From the NCBI GenBank assembly GCA_902780405.1, contig CACZFI010000004.1, positions 1-64,000 of the forward strand: 64,000 nt of DNA. The letters run 5' to 3'. The stretch's first letter is position 1. Each line of letters opens with the position of its first letter. Shown here in pieces: positions 3,690 to 28,463 of this stretch. Both the position numbers and the translations under genes were made by a program. The stretch is from an uncultured Lachnospiraceae bacterium (GTDB lineage Bacteria; Bacillota; Clostridia; Lachnospirales; Lachnospiraceae). The notes below the pieces were generated by a model. It had not been told where the DNA came from. It did no database searches and worked only from the letters and a program-made list of their open reading frames with translations.

Positions 3690-4729
3690 TTGCTTTCTCC
3701 TTTTTTTCGAAATCGAATTGCGTAACCGACCACCATAATCAGTCCGCTTAAAGCAACACAAAGATAAAAGGACATACCTCTGGACAAAAGCTCCAGCTGT
3801 GTAGCTGCGTTTTGATCCATAATGGCGGAAAGTCCGTCAAGCATCAGATAATCCGCCACGCCCATGGCTCCGGGTATCGGGGCACAGTTTGAGCCAATGG
3901 ATACCCAGCACTGTGTTACCCAGATCCTTCTGGCGCCCGAAAGTGTGCCCTCCGTAGCCAGGTACACAAACATCGCAACCGAGGTAAGCGACACTCTGGA
4001 CAACACATTATAAATATATGCTGCAATCAGTGAACGACGCTTGCCGTACATGATACGCACGCATTCTTTGTAGTCTTCTCTTGCCTTTTCAAGCTTTTTG
4101 ATCCGCTTTTCCGGATGTTTCATCAGTTTGATTCTATGGAGGAAGCCGATAAATTTGGCCGCAACATCAAATATGAGATTGCCCTTCCGAAGCACAAGCA
4201 GGAAGATGACCATCAGTACCAAAACAACCGCCACGCCGATCACGATCAGCAATTTGGAAAGCGGTGAAAATGAAAGTACTGCCGAGGGCATCAGCAAAAA
4301 AGCAACCACGCCGGCCGTAAAAACTGCCAGTGTGTACATCACCAGATTGATCAAAAGCACCACGGTAGACACCGCGCCCGACACACCGTCATGCATCATA
4401 AAAAATGCGCTGGCAGGCTGTCCTCCGCTTGCCGAAGGTGTGATCGCCGAAAAAAACACATCCGCCGATGCGTAAAGCAGACCGCTTTTTGATTGTTGTT
4501 TATATCCCGCACCCCGAAGCAGACTTCGGATCGCGCATGCTTCAAAAAATATAAATCCAAACATGGAAAGCGCTGCCGCTCCCATCACGACAGGATTTGC
4601 ATCCTGAAACGCGATGAGCATATCACCGACAGACAGATCACCGCTCATCTTAAGCACGGCCCATACACACAAAACCGCCATAGCGAGCGAGATAAAGATC
4701 CAGAGGATTCTCTTCTTCTTGTTCTCCAT
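3686..4729 (-). CDS. Flippase-like integral membrane protein (lysyl-PG synthase TM-domain / UPF0104 family)
   Basis: 347 aa with about eight hydrophobic segments, beginning just after a KKKRIL start. It resembles the lysylphosphatidylglycerol synthase transmembrane (flippase) domain alone; there is no soluble aminoacyl-transfer domain, so it should not make lysyl-lipid. The family is thought to move lipids or glycolipids across the membrane. Its position between a PAP2 phosphatase and pssA suggests a role in lipid handling, but the substrate cannot be read from the sequence. The stop overlaps the pssA start by 4 bases. Confidence 0.8.
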   Translation of the reverse strand: MENKKKRILWIFISLAMAVLCVWAVLKMSGDLSVGDMLIAFQDANPVVMGAAALSMFGFIFFEACAIRSLLRGAGYKQQSKSGLLYASADVFFSAITPSASGGQPASAFFMMHDGVSGAVSTVVLLINLVMYTLAVFTAGVVAFLLMPSAVLSFSPLSKLLIVIGVAVVLVLMVIFLLVLRKGNLIFDVAAKFIGFLHRIKLMKHPEKRIKKLEKAREDYKECVRIMYGKRRSLIAAYIYNVLSRVSLTSVAMFVYLATEGTLSGARRIWVTQCWVSIGSNCAPIPGAMGVADYLMLDGLSAIMDQNAATQLELLSRGMSFYLCVALSGLIMVVGYAIRFRKKGESK

Positions 4730-18772: not shown

Positions 18773-18826
18773 ATTTATACTTTTATCAGGCAGAATCAGG
18801 TGGGATTTCTGACAGAAGGAGGAGCC

Positions 18827-21154
18827 ATGAGCAAGGATCAAAAGAGATTAAATATCGGTTTTTTCACCTGTCATCTTGACAATGACTACGCATACGAAGT
18901 ATGTAAGGGCGTTGACTGTGCAGCCAAAGAACTTGACGTGAATCTGTTCGTCTTTCCCGGCATGTACATGAACGCTTCCTTCAGCGACCCCGGCAACCAG
19001 CGTTTTGACTATCAGTATAACGCTATATACTACTATGCTTCCAAGCGCAACCTTGATGCCATCATCGTTGCGGTCGGATCGATCGGCAGTTTTCTTTCGG
19101 TTCCCGACGTGAAGCGCTTTCTTGACCACTTTGACCTCCCGATCATAACCATCGAATACGAGGTTCCCGGTTATCCTTACGTTTACACCGAGGGTGTCAC
19201 CGGCATGCGTGAGGCCATCGAGCATCTGATCAACGAGCACAACGCCAGAAAAATCGGATTTGTGAGCGGTCGTCTCGAGAATGCCGATGCCGTCGAGCGT
19301 TTGGAAACCTACAAGTCCGTCCTGCGTGATCACGACATTTTCTATGATGCGGGGCGCGTGGTATACGGCGACTTTTCCCAGTATTCCGATGAGATCGTCG
19401 GGGATCTTCTCGACCGGAATCCCGATCTTGATGCCATTGTATTTGCCAACGACTCCATGGCCGTCGGCGGATATCGTGCGATTGCCGCAAGAGGACTCGA
19501 GATCGGCAGCGATATTTTAGTGACCGGCTACGATGACTCGCCGGTTTCCCTTGTGTTGGAACCCCAGCTTACCACAGTCCACAACCAGATCATGGATATG
19601 GGCTATCATGCCGTTCGGCAGGCTGTACGACTTGCCGGCGGACAGGACACGGATCTTTCCACCTTGAACTCCAACCTTGTCATTCGCTCTTCCTGCGGAT
19701 GTGGAGAACAGCGTCTTGCCAAATTTGCGGAAGCGATTCCGGAATTCTCTGTTGAGTCCGACTACGAAAAGACGTTGTCATCCATTTTGGACTTCCTTTT
19801 AAAAGATCATCAGTCATCCTTCTACTATGAGGATTTAAGGTCCAATTTTTCCTACCTGATCGAGCCGATCCTTTCCTCTGTCATTCAGATGGATTCGTAT
19901 GATTTTGACATTCAGAACATCAAAGCCATACTCTCCAACATGTTGGAGACGTCGCTCTTCAAGATGTACTTCAATATCGACATGCTGAGCTACATCATCA
20001 GTGAATTAAACCAGCTTCTCCAACGGCTGGCACCCACAGAAGAGGGAAAGAACGCCATCGGCGCCTGCTTCTCCGAGATTCTGTATGCGCTGATGCTTCA
20101 CATCTCCAGCACCCTTTACAAAAAGGAATACAGTTACAAGAAGTCGATCTGGAACGCCATGTATATCACACGCGATGCGCTTACCTACAGCGACAACGAG
20201 GAAACCTGCTACAGACTTATCATGCAGAAACTTCAGGATTCCAAATTCACGTCGGCGTGCCTGTATCTCTACGATGAACCGATCATGCTGATGGCAGACG
20301 GTACCTGGAAAGTTCCGCAGACACTGTTCCTCCAGGCTTCCAACACCAACGGCGAGATTCGCTATTTCAGGGATGATGCCCGTGTAATATCCTCCGAGGA
20401 TGTACTCACAAATCCCTACACCCCGGTGGAAGAACGACGCACCTCTGTGGTTGCGCCCATCTTCAGCAACAACATCCAGTACGGACTTTTTGTCGGAGAT
20501 ATCGACATCGAATACTTCTCCAATATTTATCCGAACAGCCTGCAGTTGGCAGCATCCTTAAGCTCCATCACCCTTGCGACCAGACAGGTTCGCGCGGAGA
20601 AGCGGCTTGCCGCTGCGGCAGAAGACTTAAATTTGAAGAACGAGCGCTTAGCGAACCTGACTCTGGTCGATCCGCTGACCGGACTCTTCAATCGTCGCGG
20701 CTTCCTTGACACAGCGAAGGCGCGCATCGAGCAGCCCGAAAACACAGGCAGGGATGTTGTTCTTCTTTCCGCTGACATGAATAACCTCAAGCAGGTCAAC
20801 GACATCTACGGTCAGGAGGAAGGTGACTACGCCCTAACGGCGATCGCCCGGGTGCTTACATCCGCTCTTCCCGAGGACACCGTCATCGGCAGGGTAGACG
20901 GAGACGAATTCCTCGCCTTCATCATGCTTCCGAAGAACAGCCGTCCGGAAGAGTTGAAGGAAGCTGTACTTGCGGAGTTTGACAGTCTAAACGACAATTC
21001 CGAGAAGCCCTATTTCATCCAGGCAAGTCTCGGTACGATACCATTTGTCTGCAACCCGGACGAAAGCCTTGAGGAGATCATGCAAAGCGCCGATATTGCT
21101 CTCTACGAGAACAAAAAGAACAAGCGTCAAAGCGTGATCAAGCCCAAGTCATGA
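18827..21154 (+). CDS. LacI-type sensor domain fused to a GGDEF domain
   Basis: 775 aa, with no signal peptide or membrane segment, so cytoplasmic. Residues 1 to about 290 are a periplasmic-binding-protein-like domain of the LacI/GalR type (the late GYDDSP...LTTVHNQIMDMGYHAV block is typical) without the DNA-binding helix-turn-helix. A CGCG sequence follows, then a helical stretch, a GAF-like region (about 430-590) and a GGDEF domain (about 608-775) with DPLTGLFNRRGF. The active-site loop is DGDEF (691-695) instead of GGDEF. It may be a sugar- or nucleoside-responsive diguanylate cyclase, but activity of the DGDEF form is uncertain. The ATG at 18827 follows AAGGAGG. Confidence 0.88.
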   Translation: MSKDQKRLNIGFFTCHLDNDYAYEVCKGVDCAAKELDVNLFVFPGMYMNASFSDPGNQRFDYQYNAIYYYASKRNLDAIIVAVGSIGSFLSVPDVKRFLDHFDLPIITIEYEVPGYPYVYTEGVTGMREAIEHLINEHNARKIGFVSGRLENADAVERLETYKSVLRDHDIFYDAGRVVYGDFSQYSDEIVGDLLDRNPDLDAIVFANDSMAVGGYRAIAARGLEIGSDILVTGYDDSPVSLVLEPQLTTVHNQIMDMGYHAVRQAVRLAGGQDTDLSTLNSNLVIRSSCGCGEQRLAKFAEAIPEFSVESDYEKTLSSILDFLLKDHQSSFYYEDLRSNFSYLIEPILSSVIQMDSYDFDIQNIKAILSNMLETSLFKMYFNIDMLSYIISELNQLLQRLAPTEEGKNAIGACFSEILYALMLHISSTLYKKEYSYKKSIWNAMYITRDALTYSDNEETCYRLIMQKLQDSKFTSACLYLYDEPIMLMADGTWKVPQTLFLQASNTNGEIRYFRDDARVISSEDVLTNPYTPVEERRTSVVAPIFSNNIQYGLFVGDIDIEYFSNIYPNSLQLAASLSSITLATRQVRAEKRLAAAAEDLNLKNERLANLTLVDPLTGLFNRRGFLDTAKARIEQPENTGRDVVLLSADMNNLKQVNDIYGQEEGDYALTAIARVLTSALPEDTVIGRVDGDEFLAFIMLPKNSRPEELKEAVLAEFDSLNDNSEKPYFIQASLGTIPFVCNPDESLEEIMQSADIALYENKKNKRQSVIKPKS

Positions 21155-22025: not shown

Positions 22026-22718
22026 TTAGTTTCCGTTGTACTGAGAACCGATCGGTGTAACGCGAGCGCCCTCCAGGCCAACTCTTTTTGCAAAATACTT
22101 TGCCGCCTCTTCATCTTTAAAGTGTCCGCCCGACCTGATCGCATTGGATGCACTTGCGCCTAGTTCAAGTTCACCCTGCTCGTCCAGATACACATCAATT
22201 TGGTAAGTATTCCAGGTCTGTCTTGATTTTACACAAAGGTTGTTCTTAAACACGTACTCTCCGATACTCGACTTACGAATGTAATCGCCGTCTTTTCCGC
22301 TCGGATACCACGGATTGGCATCTTCTTCGTGAATAAAAATCTGTTCTTCTGTGTTCTTGCTTACATTAACAAGACCGGCCTTGATCAGTGCAAGGGCTGT
22401 ACTGGCATCAGAGCAACGAACTTCATCCTTATCTACGTATACCCATCCTCTTTCAAATACCTCAACTTCACCTGTCTCTGGGTCTGTAAAACTAACCGGC
22501 GTTCCCTGAAAGTCATCTGGATATGTATATTCAGAAACCGCATCACGAATCATTGTTGCATTATATACGTCCATTTCCTGTCTGGATCTCTCAATGTAAC
22601 GAATCACATTGATTGAAATTGCTGCCGCCAAAACTGCCAGAATCGCAATTACCACGATCAGCTCAAGCAATGTAAAACCCTGGTTTCCGCGCCTCTTTTC
22701 GTTCTCGGATTTGTTCAT
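22026..22718 (-). CDS. Type IV pilin-like (prepilin N-terminal cleavage) protein
   Basis: 230 aa from the ATG at 22718 behind GGAGGGGG. A short basic leader ends in GNQG|FTLLEL: cleavage by a prepilin peptidase after Gly14 and methylation of Phe15 are expected, and Glu19 is the conserved Glu5 of the mature form. A hydrophobic helix (about 16-40) precedes a soluble domain of about 190 residues of no recognised type. No pilus ATPase, platform protein or prepilin peptidase is present in the window, so the machinery must be elsewhere. Its upstream region carries unusual short repeats. Confidence 0.9.
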   Translation of the reverse strand: MNKSENEKRRGNQGFTLLELIVVIAILAVLAAAISINVIRYIERSRQEMDVYNATMIRDAVSEYTYPDDFQGTPVSFTDPETGEVEVFERGWVYVDKDEVRCSDASTALALIKAGLVNVSKNTEEQIFIHEEDANPWYPSGKDGDYIRKSSIGEYVFKNNLCVKSRQTWNTYQIDVYLDEQGELELGASASNAIRSGGHFKDEEAAKYFAKRVGLEGARVTPIGSQYNGN

Positions 22719-22778
22719 CTCTTCCCCCTCCGCTTGTGCAATCATCAGTTAAAATATTCACAAAACATTTTTCTTTCA

Positions 22779-23612: not shown

Positions 23613-23960
23613 CTGCGTAAGTCAGACAAGTGGTTGCGCCTTGCAGCTTTCGCTGCGGGTGAGGAAAGTCCGGGCTTCATAGGGCAGGATGCCGGATAAC
23701 GTCCGGTGGAGGTGACTCCCAGGCCAGTGCAACAGAAATAAACCGCCAACTTCGGTTGGTAAGGGTGGAAAGGCGAGGTAAGAGCTCACCGCTGTCTTGG
23801 TAACAAGGCAGGCTCTGTAAACCCCATCCGAAGCAAGACCAAATTTGGGACGATGCAGTTGCCCGCTGGGTCCCTAGGTAGGTCGCTAGAGCCTTGTGGT
23901 AACACAAGGACCAGATAGATAACCACTCTCGACATAACCCGGCTTATCGTCTGGCTTACC
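23613..23960 (+). ncRNA. rnpB: RNase P catalytic RNA (class A)
   Basis: P1 is formed by GTAAGTCAGAC (23617-23627) with GTCTGGCTTAC (23949-23959). The universal core GAGGAAAGTCCGGGCT lies at 23660-23675, and the distal conserved block ends with ACCACTCTCGACATAACCCGGCTTATC at about 23922-23948. The RNA is the ribozyme that removes 5' leaders from tRNA precursors. Its 3' end meets the end of a convergent gene at 23965, with only a weak TACCG/CGGTA hairpin. Confidence 0.97.
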
Positions 23961-23964
23961 GCTT

Positions 23965-24675
23965 TTAAAAAATACGGTATCTGATTCTTTGACTGTTGTT
24001 CTCATTCCAGATCATACACCTGTCGATCAGGCTGTATGACAATTGCGGATATCGCGCGATAAACTCCTGTCTTTCGGCAGGGCGATCCATCACATCTCCC
24101 ACCAGCATCCTCATATCCAGGATCAGTTTTCCTCTTTGTTCTTCGGAAAGCATCCCCAGAATATATCGGCTTCTGTCCGGTAAACGATTGTAAATCTCAC
24201 GCTGCATATAAGCGATATCTATCACCCCAAGATACTCGCTGATGATATCAAACACTGCGTTCTTTTCGCAGTTTGGAATTCCCGCATGCCTTGCAACAAG
24301 CTCGCGGCAGCACTCGGTCAGATCCGGATGTTCGATGTCATAGGTCGAAAGCCCGTATATATGGTAGACATCTTTCAGCATACGCAGGTGAAGCCGTTCC
24401 ATATACTGGCTGTTGTTTAAAACCATCCATATAATGGAATCAAAATCCGCGCCCACGTCACCGTATATCAGAGAATAAGAGCTGTAAACCGCAATGGACA
24501 GCATGAAATCTTCAATGTCATTCTCACTTCCGGTAAAAAAGCAGAGAGATTTCAGTCTGGCCCCCAGGCTCTTGAAGTCATTCTCGGATAGTTCCAGATC
24601 GCTTATGATCCGCACTCGGTTCATCTGTCCCTCGAAATACTTTTGCATTTGCTGCAGGTTGATTTTGTCACTCAT
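23965..24675 (-). CDS. Unknown helical protein
   Basis: 236 aa, with no signal peptide or membrane helix and no motif that I recognise. It is predicted to be mostly helical, with many Met, Leu, Arg and Asp residues and several Cys (CFF, ECCRE, NCEKN). The ATG follows GGAGGAGGG, and the promoter at 24760-24788 overlaps a TGACA...TGTCA palindrome. The coding sequence has base composition like its neighbours. It may be a lineage-restricted regulator or stress protein, but nothing shows this directly. Confidence 0.72.
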   Translation of the reverse strand: MSDKINLQQMQKYFEGQMNRVRIISDLELSENDFKSLGARLKSLCFFTGSENDIEDFMLSIAVYSSYSLIYGDVGADFDSIIWMVLNNSQYMERLHLRMLKDVYHIYGLSTYDIEHPDLTECCRELVARHAGIPNCEKNAVFDIISEYLGVIDIAYMQREIYNRLPDRSRYILGMLSEEQRGKLILDMRMLVGDVMDRPAERQEFIARYPQLSYSLIDRCMIWNENNSQRIRYRIF

Positions 24676-24843: not shown

Positions 24844-25455
24844 TTAATCGATTTTGATGTCTAGTTTTTTGAATTCCCCAATCATGTTATCATAACCGGT
24901 GAACAAAATCCCCTTCATCCCAAGGCTGTTCGCCGCTTCGACATTCGTATCACGGTCATCCACAAAGACACATTCCGAAAGATCAAGCCCGAAACGTTCG
25001 GTAAGCAGTCTGTAAATCGCCGGATCCGGCTTGGCCAGCTTCTCCTTCGCAGAGATGATATAGCCGTCCATCTCCGGGAGAAATTGGAACTTGGCCCAGT
25101 GCATATCCGACATCTCATCCGGATAATTGGAAAGCGCATATACGGAAAGCCCTGCTGACTTAAGCTTTTGCACCAGCGGTTTTGCATAATCATACTCGCG
25201 CACGATATCCGCTATCCCGTCCCAGAATCTTCCGATCTCATCCGCATACTGAGGAAATGCTTCCGTGAAATGCTTCCGTGCATCTTCGTTATTATAGATG
25301 CCGAGATCCATCTCATGCCAGAAATCCGTAAGAACCATCTGCTCGGCAAAGAATCTGATCTCCTCGTCGGAAAGACCCAGATCTTTCATATAGTCCATAT
25401 AGCGAAAATGGATCAAAACATCTCCTACATCAAAAATAACATTTTTAATACCCAT
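24844..25455 (-). CDS. HAD-superfamily hydrolase (YihX-like)
   Basis: 203 aa. The four HAD motifs are visible: FDVGDV (nucleophile D9), the Ser of ALSNYP, the Lys of KLAKPDP, and VDDRDTNVEAA. Asp+2 is Gly, as in the YihX/alpha-glucose-1-phosphatase group, where the second acid of the standard DxD is replaced. A helical cap lies between motifs 1 and 2. Likely a sugar- or nucleotide-phosphate phosphatase; the substrate is not predictable. Confidence 0.88.
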   Translation of the reverse strand: MGIKNVIFDVGDVLIHFRYMDYMKDLGLSDEEIRFFAEQMVLTDFWHEMDLGIYNNEDARKHFTEAFPQYADEIGRFWDGIADIVREYDYAKPLVQKLKSAGLSVYALSNYPDEMSDMHWAKFQFLPEMDGYIISAKEKLAKPDPAIYRLLTERFGLDLSECVFVDDRDTNVEAANSLGMKGILFTGYDNMIGEFKKLDIKID

Positions 25456-25688: not shown

Positions 25689-26540
25689 ATGTCACAGTAT
25701 CAGGTAGATTCTATATATCATATTTTAGACCTTGCCGGAAGCATGGGACTTCCCTTGGAAGACATGCATTTTATCATCGGCAGGAACACCGACACACCTC
25801 AGTGCTTCGGTATCTACGAGGACACCGCTACCGGAGAATTTGTTGTCTACAAGAACAAAACCGATGGTACTCACGTGGAGCATTATCGCGGCACGGATGA
25901 AGCGTATGCTGCCCAGCAGATCTGGGATAAACTCGAATCAGAGATCGCCAAGCGCAGGTCCGCCTACGGAGGAGCAATCGCCAAAGGTGCTCCCGTGCAC
26001 CGCGACGTATACCTCGGCCACAAGATGGAGCAAGTACAAAGACAGCCCCGGCCCCCGAAAAACCGCACCCCGCGCAGACGCAGGAAGAGATTCAACTACA
26101 CGATTCTGATCTATACTGTGGTCATTCTCTCCTGTCTTGCGATCGCTATTGCGGACAAGAAACAGAAAAGCCACCTGCGGAACGGATACTACACCCATCG
26201 CGGAGATGTCTACTATCAGCAAAGCGGCAACTGGTACTACTACGATGACGCAATTGATGATTGGGAGCCCTACTATGACGCCGACGACTGGTATGACGAC
26301 ACGTACGACTACGATGACGATTACTATGGCAGCTACTACACATTTGACAACGAAGACAGTGCATTTTATTCCTCGGAGTTCTACGTAGATGACAGCCGCA
26401 GTTATGACTACGGCAGCAGCTACGATTACGACGATGACTACGACTACGATTATGACTACGACGATGATTATGATTACGACTGGGACAGCGATTGGGATAG
26501 CTGGGACAGTTGGGACACGGATTGGGACAGTGACTGGTAA
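25689..26540 (+). CDS. Membrane protein with Tyr/Asp/Trp-rich extracellular tail
   Basis: 283 aa from an ATG behind GGGGGAG. Residues 1 to about 115 form a soluble domain, then a Pro/Arg-rich basic stretch (PRRRRKR, about 128-134) and one membrane segment (about 137-156). The positive-inside rule puts the N-terminus in the cytoplasm and the tail outside. The tail (about 166-283) is low complexity: WYYYDD, DYDYDYDDD and then SDWDSWDSWDTDWDSDW repeats. Runs of alternating acidic and aromatic residues could bind metal, carbohydrate or wall polymers; this is inference. It lies 39 bases ahead of an EAL phosphodiesterase gene with no terminator between, so the two are probably cotranscribed. Confidence 0.8.
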   Translation: MSQYQVDSIYHILDLAGSMGLPLEDMHFIIGRNTDTPQCFGIYEDTATGEFVVYKNKTDGTHVEHYRGTDEAYAAQQIWDKLESEIAKRRSAYGGAIAKGAPVHRDVYLGHKMEQVQRQPRPPKNRTPRRRRKRFNYTILIYTVVILSCLAIAIADKKQKSHLRNGYYTHRGDVYYQQSGNWYYYDDAIDDWEPYYDADDWYDDTYDYDDDYYGSYYTFDNEDSAFYSSEFYVDDSRSYDYGSSYDYDDDYDYDYDYDDDYDYDWDSDWDSWDSWDTDWDSDW

Positions 26541-26579
26541 GTCAGTTTTTACACATCTTATTAGAAAGGAGGGGACACT

Positions 26580-28463
26580 ATGAATATCGAAATGCAATTC
26601 TGCGGATTGGCCATCAATCTGACCTTGATTCTGTTCTTCTTAAGACATTCCAAAGTAGGACTTATCAATGAGCGTATTTTCTGTGCCGCCCTTATTTCCA
26701 ATACAGCCAGCATTATACTGGATATCGTATCTGTCCTTTCCATATATTACACCGATTATTATTCCGAACTTGCGAGGACAACCCTGTGTAAGCTGTACCT
26801 GATCATGCTCGTGTTGAATTCCTACATCAGCTACATCTACTCCCTTCACGATGTCAGAAAGCTGTATACGAATTTTAAACTGCATGCTGTGATCGGCTTT
26901 GTTGCCATCATATCCTGCATCGTGATCAGCGCACTTCCGATCAGTTTTGTTTCAAACGAAGAGTATGTATACAGCCGCGGGCCGGCCGTGGAGGCAACCT
27001 ATGTCACCGCCCCCCTATTCATCCTTCTGACACTGCTCACCACCGTATTATACGGCAAATACATGAACTCCCACCGAAAGAATGCCATCCGCATCTGGAT
27101 GATTCTCGAGATCATCGCAGCTGTCATTCAGTTTATGCATCCCAAGATCCTGCTTGTGGGATTTGCCTGCTCCATCGGTATTCTCATTCTCTACGCAGAG
27201 TTAGAGAATCCCGAGGCCAATCAGGACCGTATGACCGGAGTGTTCTCCAAAAAGACGCTCAACGCATACTTAAAACAGTTGTATGCCACACATAAAAAAT
27301 TCTCTGTTATTGTCATCTGTACCGGAGACGACTGGCATATGGACAGTGAGACCGAGCGCGCCGCCCTGATCGAGATGACGGAATTCCTCCGTGCATTTCC
27401 TCATGCCAAGCTGTTCAGAGGCACCGCCAATGACTTTTTCCTGATCTATCCTTCCAACAGCAACGGAACCCACGAGATTGAAAGCGGTTTCAATCTGGAC
27501 ATCATCCGGAAGCGTTATGAAGAGCTTTGGGCGGACGATCGCGCCGTAAAAGCCTTCTTCCTCTACGCCGTGGACGGTTGGGTTGTGGACAACGCAGACG
27601 AGCTTCTCACGGTTTACCAGTATTATCGCGAAGGCACAACAGACAAACGCACCACCATCAATCTTGACAAGTCCACCGTCAGCCAGATCCACGACTACCA
27701 CAATATGGTAAAAGAGATCAAGCAGGCGATCACTGATGACCGCATTGAAGTCTTCTACCAGCCGATCTACTCCGTGCACGAAAGCAAATTTGTCTCCGCC
27801 GAAGCACTTGCGCGTATGCGTAATGCCGAAGGCGATATGGTAATGCCGGGCAAATTCATCCCCGTTGCAGAGGAGAACGGACTGATCGAGCAGATCGGTG
27901 AGCGCGTATTTGAAAAGACCTGCCATATACTGGCGAACAGCGACATCCTCTCCTGCGGTATCAAGTACATCGAGGTGAACCTGTCCGTAGCACAGTGCGA
28001 GAACAAACATCTCGCATCCAACTACCACTCCATTATGAGCAGACACAATCTCTCACCCGACTCCATCAACTTGGAGATCACCGAGACATCCACACTGACG
28101 CAGCGTCATATCCTTTTGGACAACATGCATCAGCTTCGCGAGATCGGTTGCAGTTTCTCACTGGATGATTTCGGTACCGGCGAGTCCAACCTCAACTACA
28201 TCGTGGATATGCCCGTTGACATTGTGAAATTCGATCGTACCATGACACAGGAATATTTCCGAAACGACCGCGCGAAGGTTGTCATGTCCGCTACGGTCCG
28301 CATGATCAAAGAACTCGGCTTAAAGATCGTAGCCGAGGGAATAGAAACTGCGGAAGAGCTTGAAAGCATGAAGGCACTGGGTGTGGATTACATCCAGGGC
28401 TACTACTTCTCCAAGCCGCTCCCGCAGAGTGAGTTTTATAACTTTATTCAGTCCAAGAACTAG
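26580..28463 (+). CDS. Membrane-bound c-di-GMP phosphodiesterase (degenerate GGDEF + EAL)
   Basis: 627 aa. The N-terminal part (about 1-215) has six or seven hydrophobic helices. A GGDEF-like domain (about 220-380) lacks a recognisable GGDEF signature. The EAL domain (about 385-627) keeps the catalytic set: AEALAR with E408, DDFGTG (529-534), AEGIE (E586) and QGYYFSKPL near the end. It should hydrolyse c-di-GMP. GAAAGGAGG precedes the ATG. It pairs with the Tyr/Asp-tail gene, and its stop is only two bases from the stop of the convergent kinase gene, with no terminator. Confidence 0.92.
   Translation: MNIEMQFCGLAINLTLILFFLRHSKVGLINERIFCAALISNTASIILDIVSVLSIYYTDYYSELARTTLCKLYLIMLVLNSYISYIYSLHDVRKLYTNFKLHAVIGFVAIISCIVISALPISFVSNEEYVYSRGPAVEATYVTAPLFILLTLLTTVLYGKYMNSHRKNAIRIWMILEIIAAVIQFMHPKILLVGFACSIGILILYAELENPEANQDRMTGVFSKKTLNAYLKQLYATHKKFSVIVICTGDDWHMDSETERAALIEMTEFLRAFPHAKLFRGTANDFFLIYPSNSNGTHEIESGFNLDIIRKRYEELWADDRAVKAFFLYAVDGWVVDNADELLTVYQYYREGTTDKRTTINLDKSTVSQIHDYHNMVKEIKQAITDDRIEVFYQPIYSVHESKFVSAEALARMRNAEGDMVMPGKFIPVAEENGLIEQIGERVFEKTCHILANSDILSCGIKYIEVNLSVAQCENKHLASNYHSIMSRHNLSPDSINLEITETSTLTQRHILLDNMHQLREIGCSFSLDDFGTGESNLNYIVDMPVDIVKFDRTMTQEYFRNDRAKVVMSATVRMIKELGLKIVAEGIETAEELESMKALGVDYIQGYYFSKPLPQSEFYNFIQSKN

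Follow-up and report, generated by a model that had tools for sequence, protein, structure and literature searches.

A clostridial family of membrane proteins with an acidic, aromatic tail and a near-fixed C-terminus, adjoined by an EAL phosphodiesterase gene in two species

Examination of a 64,000-nucleotide stretch of contig CACZFI010000004.1 from an uncultured Lachnospiraceae bacterium (assembly GCA_902780405.1), hereafter the window, revealed a gene (25689-26540, + strand) coding for a 283-amino acid tail protein, a member of an undescribed family that is without the zinc ribbon found in other members. Its ATG is preceded by GGGGGAG, a good ribosome-binding site. The protein starts with a conserved alpha/beta domain (residues 1-97, 25689-25979), for which the 28 members of alignment A3 give the consensus GIY...VVYKNK..G....RY.G.DE. 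A transmembrane (TM) helix located by hydropathy scan (residues 134-158, 26088-26162) has nine Lys/Arg before it and three after it, and is followed by a single, kelch-like extracytoplasmic four-stranded beta-blade (residues 161-196, 26169-26276; GYY...YY...WYYYD....W), by a D/Y/S/W-rich tail (residues 206-277, 26304-26519) predicted to be disordered over residues 206-263, and by a C-terminal peptide, DWDSDW plus stop (26520-26540), which family comparison shows to be near-invariant. All these features lie on the + strand. A gene for a HAD-like hydrolase (24844-25455, - strand) is divergent from the tail gene. Further upstream lies a class A RNase P RNA (23618-23962, + strand; Rfam RF00010, 308.5 bits), and the open reading frames (ORFs) listed across it are probably spurious. 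The window also carries a gene (18800-21154, + strand) for a 784-amino acid protein in which Pfam recognises LacI-type periplasmic-binding-like domains together with a GGDEF domain (motif RVDGDEF) and, close to the c-di-GMP genes, one for a prepilin-like protein with an N_methyl motif (22026-22745, - strand).

The original prediction placed a membrane EAL protein 39 bases after the tail gene, and the spacing was confirmed. The second gene (26580-28463, + strand) starts at an ATG preceded by AAAGGAGGGG, a good ribosome-binding site, and encodes a 627-amino acid membrane protein with a degenerate GGDEF-like region and an intact EAL c-di-GMP phosphodiesterase domain. The EAL domain (PF00563) scored 216 bits against a cut-off of 31.3, and all eight motif blocks (FYQP, EAL, NLS, EITE, DDFG, VKFD, AEGIET and IQG), which we take from the EAL family to be those that matter for catalysis or metal binding, are present in the window protein and kept, with small changes, in 16 aligned orthologues. 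The EAL residues are thus intact, as had been claimed. The stretch FRGTANDFF that precedes the EAL domain had gone unmentioned; it is GGDEF-like but degenerate, the GG(D/E)EF active site is absent, the region varies across 17 orthologues, and no GGDEF profile matched the protein at E up to 1. The PADLOC search likewise gave no match for it. Judged by its sequence, this second gene codes for an ordinary EAL phosphodiesterase of the membrane with predicted catalytic function, of the same class as other EAL phosphodiesterases with a degenerate GGDEF and intact catalytic motifs (PF00563), from which it differs in its N-terminus, which is integral to the membrane and gave no match to a named sensor domain in the profile search.

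The description of the first protein as single-pass, with a tail of Tyr, Asp, Ser and Trp, holds: it has one hydrophobic helix, and its last 118 residues contain 39 Asp, 28 Tyr, 13 Ser and 9 Trp (89/118, 75%), with these four amino acids making up 54 of the final 65 residues. The net charge of the tail is -38. At the DNA level, a pattern coding for DWDxDW followed by a stop has a single match in the window and none in 100 shuffles, and part of the tail DNA scores weakly as a tandem repeat with units of 6 to 24 bases. Over six genus pairs with computable dS (Nei-Gojobori), dN/dS was about 0.14-0.27 in the tail and 0-0.08 in the N-terminal domain (N-domain). Since relatives in other species retain the composition under purifying selection, it reflects more than chance. 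That the tail might be a strain-specific expansion standing alone is refuted, since other species of the family have it too; an isolated repeat expansion was likewise rejected, given the relatives in the order and the class.

A first profile, built from five genus members with the tail included, was searched against 392 genomes of the order and matched 29, the window genome among them, or 27 after dropping G092 and G224, whose weak rows are other proteins. A larger profile matched 19 of 391 genomes of the class: the window genome, four genomes of the same taxonomic family that were already known, six from a single genus in another family, and eight genomes with weak matches (E 1e-6 to 1e-3) that were left uncounted because they extend hardly further than the zinc ribbon. 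When sampling was widened to the phylum (398 genomes, the share from outside the class being only partly listed), 2 matched, both from the window's own family, and no new carriers appeared. A plasmid search with one member (L057) gave no match, and none of 298 pattern stretches in IMG/VR was confirmed as belonging to the family. Two unverified faecal scaffolds labelled 'Bacteriophage sp.' (L168, MT835850.1; L169, MT839895.1) carry full members with three TM helices beside bacterial-looking genes, and are probably bacterial DNA in a virome. The tail protein thus belongs to an undescribed membrane-protein family, so far found only within Clostridia.

No convincing match for the family was obtained in Pfam, NCBIfam, PHROGs (N-domain only) or PADLOC, where three tail proteins were tried without a match. 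With whole tail proteins, all rows from the profile libraries stayed under their cut-offs and were of zinc-ribbon, membrane or low-complexity type. For the N-domain, the best sub-threshold Pfam row was Peptidase_C39 (E 0.002, in one of 28 members), the best PHROGs row had an E of 0.008 and the best PDB sequence comparison an E of 0.06, none of them a convincing assignment to a known family. An AP2-like DNA-binding reading of this domain found no support either (hhalign probability 0.2%, against a single typed plant AP2 sequence). Among titles and abstract openings in the literature searched, no description of the family was found; by the same parts of the papers, the letter string of the motif occurs in work on glioma-targeting or cell-membrane-coated nanomaterials.

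Two known kinds of protein bear a partial likeness to the family. Membrane proteins of the TcaA/YvbJ type have a cytosolic zinc ribbon, a TM helix and an extracytoplasmic part. These three elements are shared with family members, although not with the ribbon-less window protein, whereas the second domain, the blade and the tail of the family differ; the TcaA model (NCBIfam NF053815) gave no match for the window protein and matched L057 over the ribbon only, at 11.3 bits against a cut-off of 550. MSCRAMM adhesins carry Ser-Asp repeat stalks that are acidic, disordered and of low complexity. The window tail is a surface stretch of this sort but is rich in Tyr and Trp, has no cell-wall sorting motif (LPXTG is absent, and the protein ends in DWDSDW rather than in a sorting-type end) and faces out from an N-terminal anchor. 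The curated MSCRAMM Clf/Sdr model did not match the window protein, its best score being 14.2 of 999 bits for L097, with biased composition.

Family members usually begin with the zinc ribbon, followed by alpha/beta domain, TM and beta-blade; after these come another conserved patch (F.DS.YY), the variable tail and the fixed end. The ribbon was present in 22 of the 38 ORFs examined for it, and is missing from all seven genus members, the window protein included. A second type has neither ribbon nor blade, and 8 of 40 members were left out of alignment A4 because no blade was recognised. Two relatives consist of zinc ribbon and N-domain only, with no TM and no tail. A copy in G325 (L134, about 3900-4312) has lost most of the N-domain and kept TM, blade and DWDSDW end. 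Predicted TM counts for 49 membrane members were one in 42, three in five, five in one and two in one, the last having a weaker third segment by eye. An odd count in 48/49 places tail and N-domain on opposite sides of the membrane. In 36/49, the stretch before the membrane part has more Lys/Arg than the stretch after it; the numbers are equal in six, and in seven the stretch after it has more. TM parity, this bias (the positive-inside rule) and the soluble relatives that have only the N-domain part together support, at the level of prediction, an N-domain inside and a tail outside, the outer location first proposed for it.

An AlphaFold2 model of the whole protein (34 rows) was confident for N-domain, TM and blade, with pLDDT 88-98 over residues 1-90, and low over residues 206-263. 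The last 13 residues reached a pLDDT of about 76-86 in the whole protein and about 55 when the outside part was modelled alone, a run that retained the blade but used 32 rows, without the blade-less type, so that the make-up of the two alignments differs. In the model, the C-terminal peptide is probably in contact with a part that precedes the blade, either the N-domain or the TM helix; given the predicted topology, such a contact would be unphysical within one inserted molecule. The predicted blade resembles those of Kelch and other beta-propellers in its one four-stranded beta-meander and a YD.....W-like spacing, but the family has a single blade (two by eye in L071) and structural scores were low, with a best Z of 4.0 over 36 residues (rmsd 2.0) and up to 3.5 for the outside part alone. 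Neither the whole model nor the outside part found a match in fold searches at E <= 0.001.

The C-terminus was surveyed in closed ORFs that contain the N-domain core. There are 51 distinct ones, and TM helices are predicted in 49. A C-terminal Trp was found in 48 of these 49 membrane members, some of which are closely related and do not count as independent cases; 46/49 end in WxxxW and 34/49 in DWDSDW. Every row of the 34-row alignment has this last Trp. The one exception (L152, G659, 1501-2733) continues for eight residues past DWDSDW, so a free C-terminal Trp is not absolute; its gene is directly followed by one for a soluble paralogue with zinc ribbon and N-domain. The two tail-less soluble relatives have no C-terminal Trp. 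Part of the set was first found through the motif pattern, and the first profile contained the tail. For nine membrane members, nevertheless, the match stopped by position 141 of the 254 in the profile and so excluded the tail (G178:C12, G053, G401:C24, G368:C22, G088, G420:C1:308047, G424:C1, G415 and G278:C1:3556069), and all nine end in Trp, which shows that the query did not force this residue. Two further rows of this kind are a soluble, tail-less protein (G387:C1) and a row to which no ORF could be assigned (G424:C5, E 3.8e-6).

Two of the nine lack WxxxW and end in NQSSDW and SWRW. They are also the only two of the 51 members in which Lys57, a near-invariant residue of the N-domain, is replaced. 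This is a hint from sequence that Lys57 covaries with the end, a weak one as both members are divergent overall. A Trp-to-Ala version of the C-terminal peptide reads WDSGGTDWDSDW. The end pattern was also considered as a tag on unrelated proteins and rejected, since 24 of 27 pattern rows lie at the ends of family genes already found by profile. The remaining rows are a damaged family copy in G325 (L093/L134), a family fragment at a contig start (L108, G111) and one row (L107, G269) with no ORF of at least 20 amino acids having that end. The reversed-pattern control matched in 1 of 392 genomes.

Such an end may be explained in several ways. In a passive surface stalk, the tail would be a disordered anionic spacer or coat, comparable to Ser-Asp repeat stalks, binding cations or wall polymer and anchored by the cytosolic domain, with the EAL gene as a chance neighbour. 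The low complexity and net charge of -38, the low pLDDT of residues 206-263, the spread of tail lengths after the last TM (20 residues in one of 34 rows, 36 to 278 in the other 33) and the absence of conserved neighbours in 14 loci outside the genus are all in keeping with it, but near-fixation of the last five to seven residues and a highly conserved N-domain exceed what a spacer needs, and we regard it as somewhat unlikely. Alternatively, the peptide may be a handling tag for biogenesis, its Trp being read by an outside PDZ-type protease, chaperone or insertase, while the protein itself might be structural. PDZ domains can read free aromatic C-termini, and the terminal Trp is kept in 48/49 membrane members despite variation elsewhere in the tail, and is missing from the two tail-less soluble relatives. 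The extension of L152 past the motif and a reader protein that is only hypothetical speak against such a tag, which seems to us improbable.

The pairing with the EAL gene was the other half of the original prediction, which proposed a two-gene surface module and named neighbourhood conservation as one check. Within the genus, the tail profile matched 8 of 37 genomes, seven clearly and one weakly (G017, profile positions 4-51 only, E 1.5e-4, no N-domain core), the latter left uncounted. The tail gene directly precedes an EAL gene in only two of the seven, G000 and G018. The gap is 39 bp in G000 and about 15 bp in G018, with ribosome-binding sites in both; between these genomes, identity is 52% for the tail protein and 55% for the EAL protein. 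G018 thus repeats the HAD/tail/EAL block, its contig beginning just upstream of the HAD gene, and the HAD gene is divergent in both genomes. Behind the EAL gene of G018 comes a GGDEF gene, which leaves a link to c-di-GMP possible in that lineage. The tail gene is away from EAL in G011, G001, G015 and G042, its neighbours not clustering with the EAL protein. In the seventh genome (G049) the contig ends 0.5 kb downstream of the tail gene and the neighbours were judged by first letters only; genes at this and some further loci were identified by eye from the first 45 letters of each.

Seen from the EAL side, orthologues were aligned from 17 genomes, and in 11 of them the tail profile found nothing. 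In two of these 11, G046 and G012 (EAL 56-59% identical), no tail or HAD gene lies between the EAL gene and the upstream neighbour that they have in common with the window (23965-24675). G046 has a 63% identical HAD gene on a different contig, and a relative (L128) of the 784-amino acid LacI-type/GGDEF protein near its EAL orthologue. In G052 (EAL 96% identical, genome 64% complete) the contig breaks inside the EAL gene, so that pairing is unreadable there. The tree of EAL orthologues is compatible with either gain or loss of the pairing. Outside the genus, BLAST clustering found no EAL gene adjoining the tail gene in any of 14 family loci (in one, G401, a protein of the EAL cluster lies three genes away, the sole such case) and no conserved partner gene in them, hence no independent support for a signalling role. 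Moreover, the 2.38-Mb window genome holds 12 EAL protein matches, so adjacency to an EAL gene is not rare by itself.

An elongation factor P-like gene lies about 3-4 kb from the tail gene in the genus members G001, G015 and G042, and two blade-less members (L136, G178; L145, G368) directly adjoin an apparent elongation factor P gene (by eye). This proximity in both groups suggests an old synteny.

A conserved operon with EAL as a general rule was rejected, the pair being seen in two species only. The pair is largely not conserved (2/7 genus genomes, 0/14 loci outside), and the two-gene module is weakly supported, by the adjacency in G000 and G018, set against G046, G012 and the 14 outside loci. 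The surface/c-di-GMP module is at best a lineage-specific addition. A true receptor/effector module, in which the tail protein would bind the membrane EAL protein and gate the phosphodiesterase, draws on the short gaps, the identities of both proteins and the GGDEF gene that comes next in G018; the EAL-orthologue genomes without a tail match, close relatives G046 and G012 included, and the four genus members with tail and EAL apart make it improbable.

We tentatively favour, at somewhat less than an even chance, a role as envelope sensor or tether, with recognition of the C-terminus on the outer side. Blade and acidic-aromatic tail would extend into the wall, where the fixed free C-terminus would be held or read by an extracytoplasmic partner, a wall ligand or a metal, and the cytosolic domain would relay the state of this end. 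In the two paired species, co-expression may put local c-di-GMP hydrolysis under or beside the tail protein and c-di-GMP turnover would be a possible output; in species without the pair, the tail protein would function without an EAL neighbour. A bolder form of this sensor or tether, which we consider doubtful, takes WDSDW-COOH as a new extracytoplasmic C-terminal recognition signal of Clostridia with a dedicated partner, engagement being reported by the zinc-ribbon/alpha-beta module, and in two species to c-di-GMP enzymes. Reading of the free C-terminus by an outside partner would account for an end that is kept while tails diverge in length and sequence.

What emerges above all is a protein family not described before, in which the C-terminus lies outside and is nearly fixed, and whose function we infer. 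What looked like a low-complexity curiosity becomes a defined family, unannotated in the libraries searched, with two experimental handles: a highly conserved cytosolic domain and a strongly constrained outside C-terminal peptide. Should the end prove not to be read by a partner, the family would still inform on what conserves an extreme Asp/Tyr/Trp tail; if it is read by one, the family would represent a new route of surface recognition or sensing in these bacteria.
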